From positions 1-38,619 of the forward strand of contig JAKBUS010000023.1 in assembly GCA_021841585.1 (NCBI GenBank): DNA of 38,619 nt, given 5' to 3'. A model generated the notes under the pieces. The model was given only the letters and a program-made list of their open reading frames with translations. It did no database searches and was not told the origin of the DNA. The translations under genes and the position numbers were made by a program. Source of the stretch: Pseudomonadota bacterium (GTDB lineage Bacteria > Pseudomonadota > Gammaproteobacteria > Acidiferrobacterales > Acidiferrobacteraceae). Shown piece after piece: positions 6,401-11,083 of this stretch (positions are counted from its first letter, which is position 1; each line of letters starts with the position of its first letter).

Positions 6401-6796
6401 ATGCACGTCAAGAATCATCTGAAGACTGTCCGCCGCGCGCTGGTGTTGGCGATGATGGCGGTGGTCCCGGCCATGGCCGCGACCCATAACGCCACGACCG
6501 TAGACGGGATCACGATCTCCGGCTACATCGACCCGACGTATATCTATAACCAGGATGCTCACGTAAGCTCCTTTTTCTTTGCCGACCGCAACACGCCGTA
6601 CTATTACTACCACAGCACCTTCGGCGATCTCTATCTCGACTTCAACAAGAAGTTCGGCGACGGCGGATCGATCGATATCCAGATCATGCCGACGCGCGGC
6701 TACGGCAGCGCCTTCGGTAGCCCCAACACCCCTCACGCCGCCAACAGCATCATAAACGCCGCGGTCCTGACCCTGCCGGTAAGTAAGGAAGTCGAC
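6401..6796 (+). pseudogene. OmpL-like porin, 5' part, interrupted by IS21 element
   Basis: Codons 1-132 of an outer-membrane porin gene. GGGAGGAA precedes ATG 6401. The product has a signal peptide ending near AMAATHN (about residues 26-30), then GITISGYIDPTYIYNQ and FGDLYLDFNKKFGDGGSIDIQIMPTRGYG, which look like BBP2/OmpL-like porin strands. The insertion sits after Val-Asp at codons 131-132. The element's own end supplies TGT TAA, so the truncated product gains one Cys and stops. The other part is at 10304-11083, and joining 6796 to 10304 restores the frame. It follows the urease operon; a role in urea or other solute entry is only a guess. Confidence 0.9.
6792..6796. repeat. target-site duplication, left copy (TCGAC)
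   Basis: The five bases TCGAC abut the left end of the inserted element and are repeated directly at 10299-10303 abutting its right end. Five bases falls in the 4-8 bp range known for IS21-family insertions. Matching copies indicate the insertion has not since been rearranged. Confidence 0.9.
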
Positions 6797-6811
6797 TGTT
6801 AAATCGCACCC
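6797..6811. repeat. left terminal inverted repeat of the IS21 element
   Basis: TGTTAAATCGCACCC starts the element and pairs with 10284-10298 (13 of 15). Just inside, at about 6809-6860, two degenerate copies of the GGCGCCA/TTCGCGG subterminal unit follow. A further TTTCCCGGTTTCGGATGGG-like stretch at about 6862-6883 is mirrored near 10138-10161, so the end symmetry extends beyond the tips. Confidence 0.85.
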
Positions 6812-6989
6812 TAAAGGCGCCACCGATTCGCGGCTTAATGGAGCCACGACAAAGTGGCCTTTTCCCGGTTTCGGATGGGTTCCTTTTACAGGGTTTTCGG
6901 CAAGCTGCCAAGAGCGTCGAAATACCATCTCGTGAGGACGGGGCGGCAGACGGAGAGCGCCGCCCCGCCGAGGTGAGGAGAGGCGCGGT

Positions 6990-7616
6990 TTAGGAGGTAG
7001 GCGCGGGATGGGGCGAGGATGGCGCGGGGCCTGGGGGCTGCGCCGCCAGCACACCCAGGAGACGCCCGCATTCGGCGCTCTTTTGCGCATGCCGCTCGTG
7101 CGCGTCGACAAGATCGGTTTTGAGCTCCGCGATCCGGGCGTCCCGTTCGGTGATGGTCGCGTGACACGCCGCCTGCGCGGCCTCGCAGGCGGCCCCTTGG
7201 GTACGCCACTGCTCGATCGCGGAGGCTTGGTCGCGCAGGGTGGCCTCGGCCTCGCGGACGCAGGCCTCGAGACGCGCGACCTCCTGCAGGGCCTCCTGGA
7301 TCGCGGCCTGGGCGGCCTGCGCCTGCGCCGCGGCCTGGGCCCGGACGGCGTCGATCTCCTGGCGCGCGAGCGTGCATGCGGCCGTCCACATGGCGGTCAG
7401 GGCCTGGGTGGCCGCGGCCGCGATCACAGGCGGCAGCGCGATCGGGGGTGGCGCCTCGGTGTGCGCCCGCCAGGCGCGCAGATGCTGGGCTACGGTGGTG
7501 AAGCTGCCGGCGCCGAGCGCCTGGCGCACGGCTTGGACGGTGACGGTCTGACCGCGATCACGCAAGTCGGACGCGACGGCAAAGACCTGTTCGGGTGTGA
7601 TGCCTGAGCGGGACAT
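6990..7616 (-). CDS. KfrA-like DNA-binding coiled-coil protein, IS passenger
   Basis: The 208-residue product starts MSRSGITPEQVFAVASDLRDRGQTVTVQAVRQALGAGSFTTVAQHLRAWR, which matches the KfrA N-terminal DNA-binding domain style (helix-turn-helix, residues about 5-50). A long Ala/Gln/Glu-rich coiled coil follows (about 75-185), then a Pro-rich tail. AAGGAGAT stands 3 bases before ATG 7616. In plasmids such as RK2, KfrA is an autoregulatory DNA-binding protein. Here it is the third gene of an IS21-type element; it could regulate transposition, act on target or donor DNA, or simply be cargo. An 8-bp repeat array lies about 80 bases upstream of its start. No catalytic motif is seen. Confidence 0.8.
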   Translation of the reverse strand: MSRSGITPEQVFAVASDLRDRGQTVTVQAVRQALGAGSFTTVAQHLRAWRAHTEAPPPIALPPVIAAAATQALTAMWTAACTLARQEIDAVRAQAAAQAQAAQAAIQEALQEVARLEACVREAEATLRDQASAIEQWRTQGAACEAAQAACHATITERDARIAELKTDLVDAHERHAQKSAECGRLLGVLAAQPPGPAPSSPHPAPTS

Positions 7617-7697
7617 ACGATCTCCTTGATAGGGCTATCCCCGCACGTCCGGGCCGCCGATAGGGCGTGCGGTCGTGCGGGAATCGCCTCATGCTGT

Positions 7698-7729
7698 AAC
7701 GTAATAACGTAATAACGTAATGGCGTAAT
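7698..7729. repeat. four tandem 8-bp repeats upstream of the KfrA-like gene
   Basis: Three perfect head-to-tail AACGTAAT units (7698-7705, 7706-7713, 7714-7721) and one variant GGCGTAAT (7722-7729) fill the istB to passenger-gene gap. A GCAACGT remnant follows at about 7733-7739. Exact octamer spacing is less than one helical turn. Between this array and the gene, CCCGCAC (about 7638) and GTGCGGG (about 7675) form an inverted pair and GATAGGGC occurs twice. Together these look like an operator region, by analogy with KfrA operators upstream of kfrA; that function is inferred. Confidence 0.7.
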
Positions 7730-7743
7730 GCCGCAACGTCCCA

Positions 7744-8538
7744 TCAGGCCGTGTCGGTGCGGTCCCGACGCTTATCCCCGGGGGGATGCGCGGCGGGATC
7801 GGAAGACGCAGGGCGCGGTTTGCGGTGGCTTGCGCCGTCGAGGACCACCCGATAGGCCCCGTCTTGCAGGCGGTCGAGGGTCGCGGCGGCCAGCATCTTG
7901 TTGGGAAAGGCGCTCGGCCATTCGCTCCAATCCAGGTTGCTTGTGATAAGGCAGCTGCCGCGCTCATAGCGTTCGGCGATGAGGTCGCAGAAGTCCTCGT
8001 CCTCGGGGGATCGCAGTGGACGCAGACCGAAATCGTCGACGATGATGAGGTCGACCCGGGCAAGCTGCTTGAGCTTGCGGTCGTAGGCCTGCGTGGCGCG
8101 CGCCGCGCGCATCTGCGCGAGCAACCGCGCCTGCGTGGCGAACACGACATCGAAGCCTTGGCGCAGCGCGCAATGCCCCAGGGCCTGGGCCAGATGGCTC
8201 TTGCCGGTGCCGGTCGGCCCCACGATCAAGACCGGGGCCTTCTCGGTCACGAACCGGCCGGTGGCGAGATCCGCGATGAGCGCGTGCGGGGCCGAGGGCC
8301 GTTCGGCGAAGTCGAAGCGCTCCAGGGTCTTGTCGGCGAGCACCTGGGACCTGCGCAGGCGCTGGGCGAACTTATGCTGCTCGCGGCGCGCCACCTCGTC
8401 TTGGATCAAGAGCGCCAGGAAGTCGGTGTAGGCGAGCTGTCCGGCGATGGCCTGCCGGTTGCGGGCCTCCAACGAGTCGAGGATGCCCGACAGGCGCAGC
8501 TGCTTTAGGTAGGGCACAAGGGATGGCATGGGATTCAT
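7744..8538 (-). CDS. istB: IS21-family helper ATPase IstB
   Basis: IstB is the AAA+ ATPase that remodels target DNA and assists the IstA transposase. The 264-residue product has the Walker A motif GPTGTGKS (residues 107-114), Walker B VDLIIVDDFG (about 162-171), and ITSNLDWSEW as sensor region. ATG 8538 is chosen because TTTTAGGAG lies about 8 bases upstream; longer in-frame extension would overlap istA without adding family sequence. It starts 26 bases after the istA stop. The C-terminus (RKPRPASSDPAAHPPGDKRRDRTDTA) is a basic, disordered tail. It appears intact. Confidence 0.95.
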   Translation of the reverse strand: MNPMPSLVPYLKQLRLSGILDSLEARNRQAIAGQLAYTDFLALLIQDEVARREQHKFAQRLRRSQVLADKTLERFDFAERPSAPHALIADLATGRFVTEKAPVLIVGPTGTGKSHLAQALGHCALRQGFDVVFATQARLLAQMRAARATQAYDRKLKQLARVDLIIVDDFGLRPLRSPEDEDFCDLIAERYERGSCLITSNLDWSEWPSAFPNKMLAAATLDRLQDGAYRVVLDGASHRKPRPASSDPAAHPPGDKRRDRTDTA

Positions 8539-8564
8539 GGGATGAGCTCCTAAAAGGTTCGGTG

Positions 8565-10097
8565 TCAGTGCACGGATTCGGAGGAGGAGCGACTGAAGCG
8601 TCCCCCCCGTACATAGGGTTCCTCGAGGGCCGCGGTCTCGGCCTGCGCGCTTGCGTGATCGAGCCCCTGGATGAGGATGCTCTTGACGGTGCGGTAGCGC
8701 GGCGTCCCGAAATGCACGGCGCGCGCGCACGCCGCCTCGAGACGTGTCGCCCCGTACTGGTCGGCCAGCCGCAAGAGTCCTTGCGCCGCGCGCAGGTGCT
8801 CCAGCACGCGATCGGCAAAGAGCGCCTCGACCACGGCCCGGCAGGCGGGTCCAATGGCCTGGGCGGACTTCAGGCACCACTGCGGGTCGCGCAAAGCATA
8901 GGCCTGGGCGTCCGGTGGCATGTGGTCGGGTACGGTGGCGTGGCTCCCGGGCTTTGTGAGGCGCGCATGGGTGGCGACCAGCCCATGGTCCTCATAGACC
9001 CGCACCACGCTGGCGGTGGCCGCAAGCCACAGGCTATGCCGGATCAGGCGAAACGGGACCGAGTAGTGGCAGTACTCGTACTGGACATGGGCGTTGCCAT
9101 GGACCCGCACCTGGGCCCACACCGGACACTCCGGGGCGATCGCGGGCAACGGCTTCAAGAGCGCCTGTTCGGTCTCGGTAAAGAGCGTAAGCGGCCGCGC
9201 GCGCGTGGTGCCGTGGATGCGGTTGCCGGCCTCGCCCAAGACCCAGGCCCGCAACTCGGCGTTGGCGTGGGCGAGGCTATGAAACTCACGCAACGCGAGG
9301 AAGCCTGTCTTGATATATTTGACGCCCGCCTCGACGCGCCCCTTCTTCTGGGGATCCCGCGGTGGACAGGCATCGATCCGAAAGCCATAGCCCAGGGCCA
9401 GATCCCCATAGGCGCGCTGCACCGTGGGTTCGTAGTAACAGGCGCGGGTGATGGCGCACTTGGCGTTATCGATGATCAAGCGCCCCGGGACGCCATTGAA
9501 CCACTCGAAGGCGTGGCGATGGCAGGCGAGCCATGTCTCCACCTTCTGGTTGCGCACGAGCTCGGCGTATTGGTGGCGGCTCCAGGCGAGCGTCATCACG
9601 AAAAACCAGGTCTTCATGACCTCGCCGGTCGCGCGGTCGACGATCTGTGGCCCTTGCCCGAAGTCGACCTGGGCGGCGTCTGCGACCGCGAAATCCAGGA
9701 TCACCGTGGCCGGGGGACTTGAGTCGACGACCCGATCGAGCAGACGGTAGATGGTGTGCACGCTGCCGGTGAAGCGGTACTTGCGCACCAGGGCCTGGTG
9801 GATGGCCGTCGCGGTGATCCCCTGACCGTGCCAAGCGAGGATCTGCTCGCGAAAGGGCGCGGCGCTCGACACCGACCGGTTCGTCGGGGCCGGGGTAAAC
9901 ACCTCCGCCAGCGCCCGATCCTCGGGCAGAGGGGTCTTGGGGTCAAGCCAGCCCCGCTCTAAGGCCTGTCGGCGCACTCGGGCTACGGTCTTGCGACCCA
10001 CCCGCTGGGCGCGGGCCACATCACGATCGGACTCGCCCAATCGCAGGCGTTGAATCACTTGCCGGATCTCGTACATCTCGAACCTCCTGTTGCTCAT
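8565..10097 (-). CDS. istA: IS21-family DDE transposase IstA
   Basis: IstA cuts and joins the element ends. The 510-residue product has an N-terminal helix-turn-helix (EIRQVIQRLRLGESDRDVARAQRVGRKTVARV, about 9-41), then an RNase H-like catalytic core with D145 in AQVDFGQGPQ, D210 in LIIDNAKC and E256 in KKGRVEAGVKYIK, the expected DDE triad. The C-terminal part holds the MuA-like barrel region (VWAQVRVHGNAHVQYEYCHYSVPFRLI). AGAGGAG precedes ATG 10097. Length and motifs indicate a complete enzyme. The gene is read from the right end of the element toward istB. Confidence 0.95.
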   Translation of the reverse strand: MSNRRFEMYEIRQVIQRLRLGESDRDVARAQRVGRKTVARVRRQALERGWLDPKTPLPEDRALAEVFTPAPTNRSVSSAAPFREQILAWHGQGITATAIHQALVRKYRFTGSVHTIYRLLDRVVDSSPPATVILDFAVADAAQVDFGQGPQIVDRATGEVMKTWFFVMTLAWSRHQYAELVRNQKVETWLACHRHAFEWFNGVPGRLIIDNAKCAITRACYYEPTVQRAYGDLALGYGFRIDACPPRDPQKKGRVEAGVKYIKTGFLALREFHSLAHANAELRAWVLGEAGNRIHGTTRARPLTLFTETEQALLKPLPAIAPECPVWAQVRVHGNAHVQYEYCHYSVPFRLIRHSLWLAATASVVRVYEDHGLVATHARLTKPGSHATVPDHMPPDAQAYALRDPQWCLKSAQAIGPACRAVVEALFADRVLEHLRAAQGLLRLADQYGATRLEAACARAVHFGTPRYRTVKSILIQGLDHASAQAETAALEEPYVRGGRFSRSSSESVH

Positions 10098-10161
10098 GGC
10101 GTCTCCTCTCGTTAAAAAACCGCGAGAGAGTAACGCACCAAGGGGTCCGAAACGGGAACCG

Positions 10162-10283
10162 GCGACCGAGCGTGGCCTCTTTAGACCGCGAATCGACTGG
10201 CGCCATTACCCCGCGAACGGTGTGGCGCCATTAGACCGCGAATTGACTGGCGCCTTTAGGCCGCGAACGAAATGGCTCCATGG
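10162..10283. repeat. 25-bp tandem repeats in the right end of the IS21 element
   Basis: Units of 25 bases start at 10184, 10209, 10234 and 10259, each containing CCGCGAA followed by TGGCGCCWTTA or a close variant; a degenerate unit precedes at 10162-10183. The left end has about two related units. IS21-type elements are known to carry several transposase-binding repeats near their ends, usually more on the istA side, and this asymmetry fits. The istA promoter should lie here as well. Confidence 0.8.
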
Positions 10284-10298
10284 GGGCGCGAGTTAACA
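10284..10298. repeat. right terminal inverted repeat of the IS21 element
   Basis: GGGCGCGAGTTAACA, which read inward is TGTTAACTCGCGCCC, pairs with the left tip 6797-6811 at 13 of 15 positions. The element ends with CA, and the target duplication follows directly. Confidence 0.85.
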
Positions 10299-10303
10299 TC
10301 GAC
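10299..10303. repeat. target-site duplication, right copy (TCGAC)
   Basis: Direct copy of 6792-6796. When one copy and the element are removed, the porin reads through in frame (Val-Asp-Phe-Ile-Ala-Gly-Gln), which independently confirms the element's borders. Confidence 0.9.
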
Positions 10304-11083
10304 TTCATCGCAGGCCAAGTCCCGGCGTGGGACGGATACGAGTCCGAGACTTCCCCGCAGATGCTCACCATCACCCACAACCTGCTCTATGATTTCAGTG
10401 AGCCAGGTTACTTCACGGGTGCGGGCGCGAGCTACACGTCGGGGATACTGACCGTCCAGACCCTGGTTGGCAATTCCTGGAACACCGCCTATACCGGCAG
10501 CGCCACGCCTACCAAGGCCCCGACCTTCGAGTACCGCGTGTCGGCCGCGCCTACCAGTGATTTAAGCTTTGGGCTCTACGGGACGATCGGTAAAAACCCG
10601 ATGCTTACCAATCCCGCGGTCGAGACCACACGCATCTATAATGACTTCGATGGGACCTATACCCTGGGCGCCGCCACCTTCAATTGGCAGTTCGACCTCG
10701 GTCATCAGACCGCAGGAGCCGCCAACGGCGGCAACGCCATGTGGTATGGCACCTCGCTGCTCGCCAATTACCGCTTCACGCCGCTCGTGGGCGCCACGCT
10801 GCGCTACGACTATCTGAACGACAAGAAGAACGGTGGCCATATCGCTACGGCGGATTACTATGACGGCTTTGCGCCGACGTCAACCTTGGCGCCTGGTGTC
10901 AATAATGGCCCGGTGCGGCAGGCGGTGACCGCCGATCTGCTGCTCTATCCCGTCAAGAACACCATCGTGAAATTCGAGTACCGCTACGATCGCGCCAATG
11001 GCGCGCTGTTCCTGGATACGTCCACGGGGGCTTACAAGAAGAGTAATAACGTCCTGGCCGCGCAGATCGTGTATTCGTTCTAG
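10304..11083 (+). pseudogene. OmpL-like porin, 3' part, interrupted by IS21 element
   Basis: The remaining 259 codons of the porin begun at 6401. An accidental ATG inside the element end (10280) is in frame, but any product made from it would lack a signal peptide. The sequence shows FIAGQVPAWDGYESETSPQMLTITHNLLYDFSEPGY, then regularly spaced amphipathic strands (LSFGLYGTIG, TFNWQFDLGHQT, ATLRYDYLNDKK, IVKFEYRYDRANG) and ends AQIVYSF, whose C-terminal Phe is the usual signal for outer-membrane barrel insertion. The reconstructed protein is 391 residues. There are no other stops or frameshifts, so the gene was intact until the insertion. Confidence 0.9.

Follow-up and report, generated by a model that had tools for sequence, protein, structure and literature searches.

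IS21 is the model of AAA+-assisted transposition, and its usual description has two genes, istA and istB. In the part of one IS21 study on which we draw, the ends are direct repeats and an integration assay gives a 5-bp target duplication (PMC10122671). KfrA proteins are known from plasmids such as RA3, whose KfrA represses its own promoter via an operator that overlaps the kfrA promoter and consists of five direct repeats of 9 bp (PMC7783346). Here we describe an IS21-family element in a 38,619-nt stretch of DNA (the window; contig JAKBUS010000023.1) from a Pseudomonadota bacterium of the Acidiferrobacteraceae. The element carries a kfrA-like gene behind istA and istB. This gene, proposed in an earlier note on the same DNA to be cargo of the element, is a real, conserved third gene within the IS21 borders. 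New here are a second kfrA-bearing IS21 lineage in the same genus, ATTACG clusters shared by the two lineages, and kfrA as a module common to both. The element comprises the following features (positions in the window).

6797..10298, minus strand: IS21-family element, 3502 bp, with the minus-strand order istA-istB-kfrA, delimited by its tips, the target duplication, a second full copy and empty sites
10172..10298, minus strand: istA-side end, tip TGTTAACTCGCGCCC with five repeats ~25 bp apart (presumed IstA sites)
8565..10097, minus strand: istA, DDE transposase, 510 amino acids (aa), from NCBIfam and Pfam profiles
7744..8538, minus strand: istB, AAA+ helper ATPase, 264 aa, from NCBIfam and Pfam profiles
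7698..7729, minus strand: iterated array of four 8-bp units ATTACGNN, a candidate KfrA operator
6990..7616, minus strand: kfrA-like gene, 208 aa, KfrA_N N-terminal domain and predicted long helix, from PF11740, an AlphaFold model and substitution rates
6797..6848, plus strand: kfrA-side end, tip TGTTAAATCGCACCC with two repeats like those of the istA side
6792..6796, no strand: left copy of the target-site duplication TCGAC, from the flanks
10299..10303, no strand: right copy of the target-site duplication TCGAC, from the flanks

The tips, flanks and family profiles bear out the claim of an intact IS21 element with inverted repeats and a TCGAC duplication. Both tips begin with 5'-TG and are identical at 13 of the first 15 bases, the repeats behind them keep the ~25-bp spacing at either end, and TCGAC flanks the element on each side. 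IstA scored 240 bits against the NCBIfam profile transpos_IS21 (NF033546; cut-off 160); of the Pfam profiles, Mu-transpos_C_2 was above its cut-off and rve slightly below (32.5 against 32.6). IstB scored 245 bits against IS21_help_AAA (NF038214; cut-off 200) and also exceeded the cut-off of Pfam IstB_IS21. An IS21-type istA, an istB directly downstream, repeated inverted 5'-TG ends and a short target duplication are thus all present, and only the restriction of the gene content to istA and istB is broken, by kfrA. The assignment to IS21 stands, since we take two-gene content to be a usual rather than a defining trait.

The product of the third gene matched PF11740 (KfrA_N) with an E value of 4e-22 (79 bits, cut-off 26). 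Its AlphaFold model (mean predicted local distance difference test 89, predicted template modeling score 0.41) has three short N-terminal helices followed by a single helix spanning residues 63-192, and the DNA-binding head and long alpha-helical tail of KfrA proteins are therefore both predicted. The ratio of nonsynonymous to synonymous substitution rates (dN/dS) was 0.18-0.30 for kfrA in three pairs of window-lineage copies, compared with 0.08 for istA and 0.13 for istB; with values well below 1, kfrA has stayed intact. A fold search of the PDB with the model gave no match at E ≤0.001 (best E 0.32), and a PDB sequence search with the KfrA profile gave transcription activator-like effector (TALE) repeat chains (E to 7e-9, residues 4-30) and coiled coils, which we judged uninformative. 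No single stretch of residues 4-30 passes on its own, and the TALE likeness is probably a short one summed over repeats.

Other copies of the element place kfrA inside the mobile unit, as full and partial copies stop at the same ends and have other flanks. A full-length second copy, kfrA included, lies on G005:C94 (= L019, counted once), is 91% identical and has different flanks. The contig G012:C81, whose sequence starts within istB, includes kfrA as well as the same tip, two relics (G000:C70 and G008:C2:269978) stop at the kfrA-side tip with other flanks, a third (G000:C2) stops at a variant of the istA-side tip, and G000:C39 retains a short kfrA piece only. The earlier note had named copies with the same ends in a different setting as the thing to look for, and copies ending just after istB as the outcome that would speak against it; the former were found, and the other copies of the window element do not end there. 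Together with the PF11740 match, the second full copy and the same-tip relics establish the KfrA-type, co-directional third gene within the same borders.

The insertion site gives the same picture. The element interrupts a gene that we call porin-like from its appearance:

6401..6796, plus strand: porin-like gene, interrupted, 5' part
10304..11083, plus strand: porin-like gene, interrupted, 3' part

When the flanks were rejoined with a single TCGAC, the porin-like frame stayed open across the 330 residues printed. Our same-genus sample held 14 genomes, and the downstream flank was matched in seven of them: the window's own genome, five others along almost the whole flank, and G012 along 100 bases only. 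In all five readable relatives the two flanks meet directly and share exactly the 5 duplicated bases. The site is thus empty in these relatives and the chromosomal KfrA_N gene of the genus lies elsewhere, so the second objection foreseen in the earlier note, a kfrA-like gene standing at this place in relatives that lack the element, did not materialize. We also considered that kfrA might be co-located with the ends merely by chance, which the full second copy, the same-tip relics and the five empty sites rule out.

For the genus as a whole, IstB matches were counted at E 1e-20 or better. There were 21, of which six are followed by kfrA: all three with at least 91% identity to the window IstB, and three in G008. 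The other 15 loci had no KfrA match at their coordinates in genus-wide KfrA searches, and local tblastn at 14 of these 15 (G008:C1:416167 was left out) likewise gave none. A consistent succession of istA, istB and kfrA, raised as a question in the earlier note, therefore holds for the close relatives of the window element (3/3) and for the G008 copies, and breaks down at the other 15 of 21 IstB loci. The statement that IS21 elements normally carry istA and istB alone proved sound, most of the related elements examined being without kfrA.

The three G008 loci are copies of another IS21 (type II, the window lineage being type I), at least 99.5% identical over shared stretches, each with kfrA after istB. 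Their IstA and IstB share about 31-32% identity with the window proteins, whereas their kfrA, in the same position and order, is 52% identical to the window kfrA over 201 aligned codons. One copy is complete (L041 2616-6049, tips TGCGTATTCCGA and TGCATATTCCGA, CCTGG on both sides), while the remaining two are rearranged and truncated, respectively. In the copy on L042 the istA end has the opposite orientation to the remainder, which points to an internal rearrangement. Traces of this lineage are found further afield in the genus: G004 has a kfrA relic (protein 82% identical) without istA or istB, and an istA-istB piece in the window's own genome (L101, G000:C35) runs off the contig end, with istA 89% and the start of istB 96% identical to G008. 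A query from the second lineage adds three partial IstB matches, in this own-genome piece, G012:C169 and G009:C50.

How kfrA came to be in both lineages was approached with trees and substitution rates. On the IstA tree (17 rows) the elements with kfrA occupy two separate positions, and the starred branches force two label changes. On the KfrA tree (30 rows, five of 35 with very long branches having been dropped beforehand and the phylum-level matches L120, L124-L127 and L129 not being included), the element KfrAs form one clade (96/91) and the chromosomal KfrAs of the genus lie apart (98/98, with one other row inside). Between the window and G005 copies, dN was 0.070 for kfrA, 0.023 for istA and 0.030 for istB, and kfrA is thus 2-3 times higher within type I. 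Between types I and II, in contrast, the proportion of nonsynonymous differences (pN) was 0.33 for kfrA and 0.52 and 0.51 for istA/istB. Faster change within a lineage combined with closer likeness between lineages favors exchange, or two captures from one source, and by these sequence comparisons kfrA appears to behave as a module common to separate IS21 lineages. A single old acquisition by an IS21 ancestor, with many later losses, would also account for the agreement of the two lineages in gene position, gene order and motif cluster, and the starred branches of the IstB tree are compatible with one origin. We nevertheless consider it quite unlikely, given the kfrA-less relatives that stand between the carriers on the IstA tree, the two changes forced there, and the contrast between the within- and between-lineage rates.

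The gap between istB and kfrA contains a candidate control site. ATTACG occurs in the window gap four times at 8-bp steps, against 0.25 expected, and in the corresponding gaps of the G005, G012 and G008 elements three, three and four times. For the window, G005 and G008 gaps, none of 2000 dinucleotide shuffles each reached the observed count. The motif was confined to this gap in 3/3 complete elements scanned, with no occurrence elsewhere, the ends and the region upstream of istA included. The direct pattern ATTACGNNATTACG had 10 occurrences in the 14 genomes, seven of them within type I elements, and its reversed control had none; the remaining matches (G001:C96, G009:C12 and G000:C23) are coding-like by eye, have no KfrA, IstA or IstB match near them and were set aside. 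The ATTACG clusters thus form a putative operator resembling the repetitive one of plasmid RA3, and their confinement to the istB-kfrA gap points to control of kfrA itself. Between array and kfrA we also noted an inverted repeat, CCCGCACG...CGTGCGGG (window 7636-7680); on visual inspection the G005 and G012 copies have comparable, though not identical, stems.

The same distribution bears on whether KfrA alters the regulation of transposition, as the earlier note had suggested. With no ATTACG at the ends or before istA, direct control is unsupported, the candidate sites of the three complete elements being restricted to the gap. A modulator that acts by binding or bridging IstA/IstB or the IS ends, and so changes transposition frequency, target choice or immunity, would fit the fact that kfrA is the only extra gene recognized and is conserved within the element lineage. 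It is, however, decidedly improbable in view of the motif-free ends and istA upstream regions, of the existence of sister elements without kfrA, and of the end sequences, which differ between the two lineages though their KfrAs are related. We infer that kfrA is dispensable for movement.

The reading that we favor, and think rather probable, is that of an IS21 transposon that gained a third gene together with its own control site, kfrA being an autoregulated accessory and kfrA plus operator an exchangeable block. KfrA dimers would bind the istB-kfrA array and repress kfrA, by analogy with RA3 KfrA on its repetitive operator. The protein would then act as an autonomously regulated accessory, forming a nucleoprotein patch within the element and standing outside the cut-and-paste machinery; that kfrA is accessory and self-regulated is suggested by an array that follows istAB and by ends that are free of the motif. 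The block could have moved from one IS21 element to another, or have been captured on two occasions from a common source. The benefit is the least certain step, and would most likely be the stabilizing or insulating of the element or its carrier replicon. We also entertain, tentatively and with some doubt, a bolder version in which unrelated IS21 elements recruit a kfrA-plus-iteron cassette and a putative filament-forming, partition-type protein would mark every IS copy of a cell with a self-regulated patch, one protein recognizing all of them. If true, KfrA patches would add a new layer to IS biology, in the form of stability, insulation or copy sensing.

A KfrA_N gene also exists in the chromosomes of the genus. 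It is present in single copy in 10 of the 14 genomes (for example L064:1501-2025, G000:C82), and in G008 it adjoins a Proton_antipo_M membrane-protein gene and lies outside any IS. The possibility that the element kfrA is this native gene, trapped between the ends, is ruled out, as the native gene is found elsewhere and belongs to another clade (33-34% identical to element KfrA over the alignment). In the five genomes whose upstream regions were read, one to three ATTACG/AACGTAAT sites precede the chromosomal gene; a start-codon pattern found 4/9. Of two upstream regions shuffled, one with a single site was unremarkable (345/2000) and one with two sites stood out (12/2000). Because these sites precede the chromosomal gene, element KfrA and host KfrA might bind each other's sites.

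Outside the genus, no kfrA-bearing IS21 was found in the draws searched. With the KfrA profile at E 1e-12, matches came from 14 of 57 genomes of the order (11 of this genus and three of a sister genus), 12 of 369 in the class draw and 15 of 398 in the phylum draw; in the last two draws at most seven or eight first-look candidates per genome were scored, so that misses are possible. At 10 class-level and 11 further phylum-level KfrA loci outside the genus, no IstA or IstB match was seen within flanks of up to ~1.5 kb. Conversely, tblastn with both element KfrAs gave no match in the Acidithiobacillus caldus, Caballeronia, Paraburkholderia, ISRme9, Marinobacter or Rhodobacteraceae metagenome-assembled genome (MAG) relatives of the element, negatives that exclude only fairly close KfrAs, as tblastn at 1e-3 missed a KfrA_N gene in Marinobacter. 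End-like repeats were seen by eye within ~200 bp of istB in several of the relatives outside the genus. CRISPR-like repeat arrays (clustered regularly interspaced short palindromic repeats) were seen by eye up to ~500 bp after istB, just past the IS21 end, on L085 (G011:C61) and L020 (the Rhodobacteraceae MAG contig).

The Marinobacter gene lies on plasmid NZ_CP152381.1 (L066:4820-5239, 139 codons, E 5e-11) and adjoins istB on the opposite strand. We place it outside the IS, judging by a G008-like tip, CCGGAATACGCA, that ends at L066:4908, and its last ~29 codons run into the IS end. This suggests that an IS21 of second-lineage kin landed in a KfrA_N gene, conceivably a first step of kfrA capture. 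The gene also stands beside a Tn3-family transposase gene.

Several observations weigh against an exchangeable kfrA-operator block with its own control. The Marinobacter case means that mere adjacency of IS21 and KfrA_N can arise by insertion, and the G005 copy has no target duplication. The array of G008 differs, its four sites being two overlapping pairs on opposite strands, and the direct ATTACGNNATTACG pattern has no match in G008 elements. The ATTACG/AACGTAAT sites described above also occur before chromosomal genes, and no sigma-70-like site came up when the element was scanned for promoters. As to history, long-branch warnings attach to the IstA tree, two changes are needed on the IstB tree (18 rows) but just one is forced by its starred branches, and the proportion of synonymous differences (pS) between the lineages is 0.51-0.58, near saturation, for all three genes, so that any exchange is old and a date is not derivable. 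Finally, a fused relic on G009:C50 (L095) joins the first 226 residues of a G008-type IstA (92% identical) to an IstB tail that is 55% identical, with no kfrA in the 1.5 kb that follow. The fusion is possibly a recombinant of two IS21 elements.

The plasmid background of KfrA raises the alternative of a retention device, in which KfrA and the array serve as an accessory partition or stability locus and replicons that receive the IS are lost less often. In RA3, a test plasmid needed operator binding by KfrA in order to be maintained stably (PMC7783346), and the accessible text of another study ties KfrA genes in Acidithiobacillia to plasmids, which they mark (PMC10561277; the term IS21 is absent from its main text). 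We regard this alternative as unlikely. No partition gene of the parA/parB type and no kfrB or kfrC was recognized in the element, whose three main genes were the ones searched against family libraries, and this argues against a full partition system. The copies sit on megabase contigs of two near-complete genomes or on draft contigs not assigned to a replicon. At 1e-8 and with the BLAST low-complexity filter on, P0001 had no match among plasmid records, and the sole plasmid match to P0004 was a weak one to a Nitrosospira gene whose surroundings have no annotated IS21.

A KfrA_N protein inside a transposon appears already to have a precedent. The pWW0 protein L139:67-1062, which from its position and the literature we take to be TnpT of the Tn4651-type Tn3 transposons, is divergent to a site-specific integrase and matches PF11740 at E 2.6e-26. 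This match raises the possibility that TnpT is related to the KfrA family. In the portion of the literature available, TnpT is called without apparent homology to other proteins (PMC7157771). By this likeness the element KfrA could be a helper of a site-specific recombinase. We think this very improbable, however, as no recombinase was recognized in the element (none of its three genes encodes a tyrosine recombinase) and as the sites of TnpT are described, in the text to hand, as palindromes between divergent genes (PMC4619425), unlike the kfrA array. No description of an IS21 carrying kfrA was found in the literature searched, as far as its text was available.

Collectively, these data indicate that compact IS21 elements can acquire and share regulatory modules, a selected and apparently separately regulated third gene being present in two distant lineages of one genus. 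Being small and having a short candidate operator, the element KfrA also provides a handle on the roles of KfrA proteins away from partition genes.

Set beside described systems, the element is closest to its IS21 kin, with the A. caldus/Burkholderiaceae group nearest to the window element and the ISRme9 type nearest to that of G008. It shares with them the istA-istB order, the 5-bp duplication, 5'-TG tips and repeated ends, and IstA is 52-61% identical in the relatives compared; it differs in its kfrA, which follows istB in none of these relatives by tblastn with both KfrAs and by annotation tables. With the plasmid KfrAs of RK2 and R751 (IncP) and RA3 (IncU) it has in common PF11740 (tested for R751), a predicted long helical tail and an RA3-like repeat array before the gene. 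The element KfrAs are, however, shorter (208-222 aa against 342 for R751), IS-borne and without a recognized partition operon or KfrB/KfrC alongside. Like TnpT of Tn4651-type Tn3 transposons, the protein has a KfrA_N domain and is encoded inside a transposon, but TnpT works with the recombinase TnpS at rst, and the window element has no such partner that we recognized.

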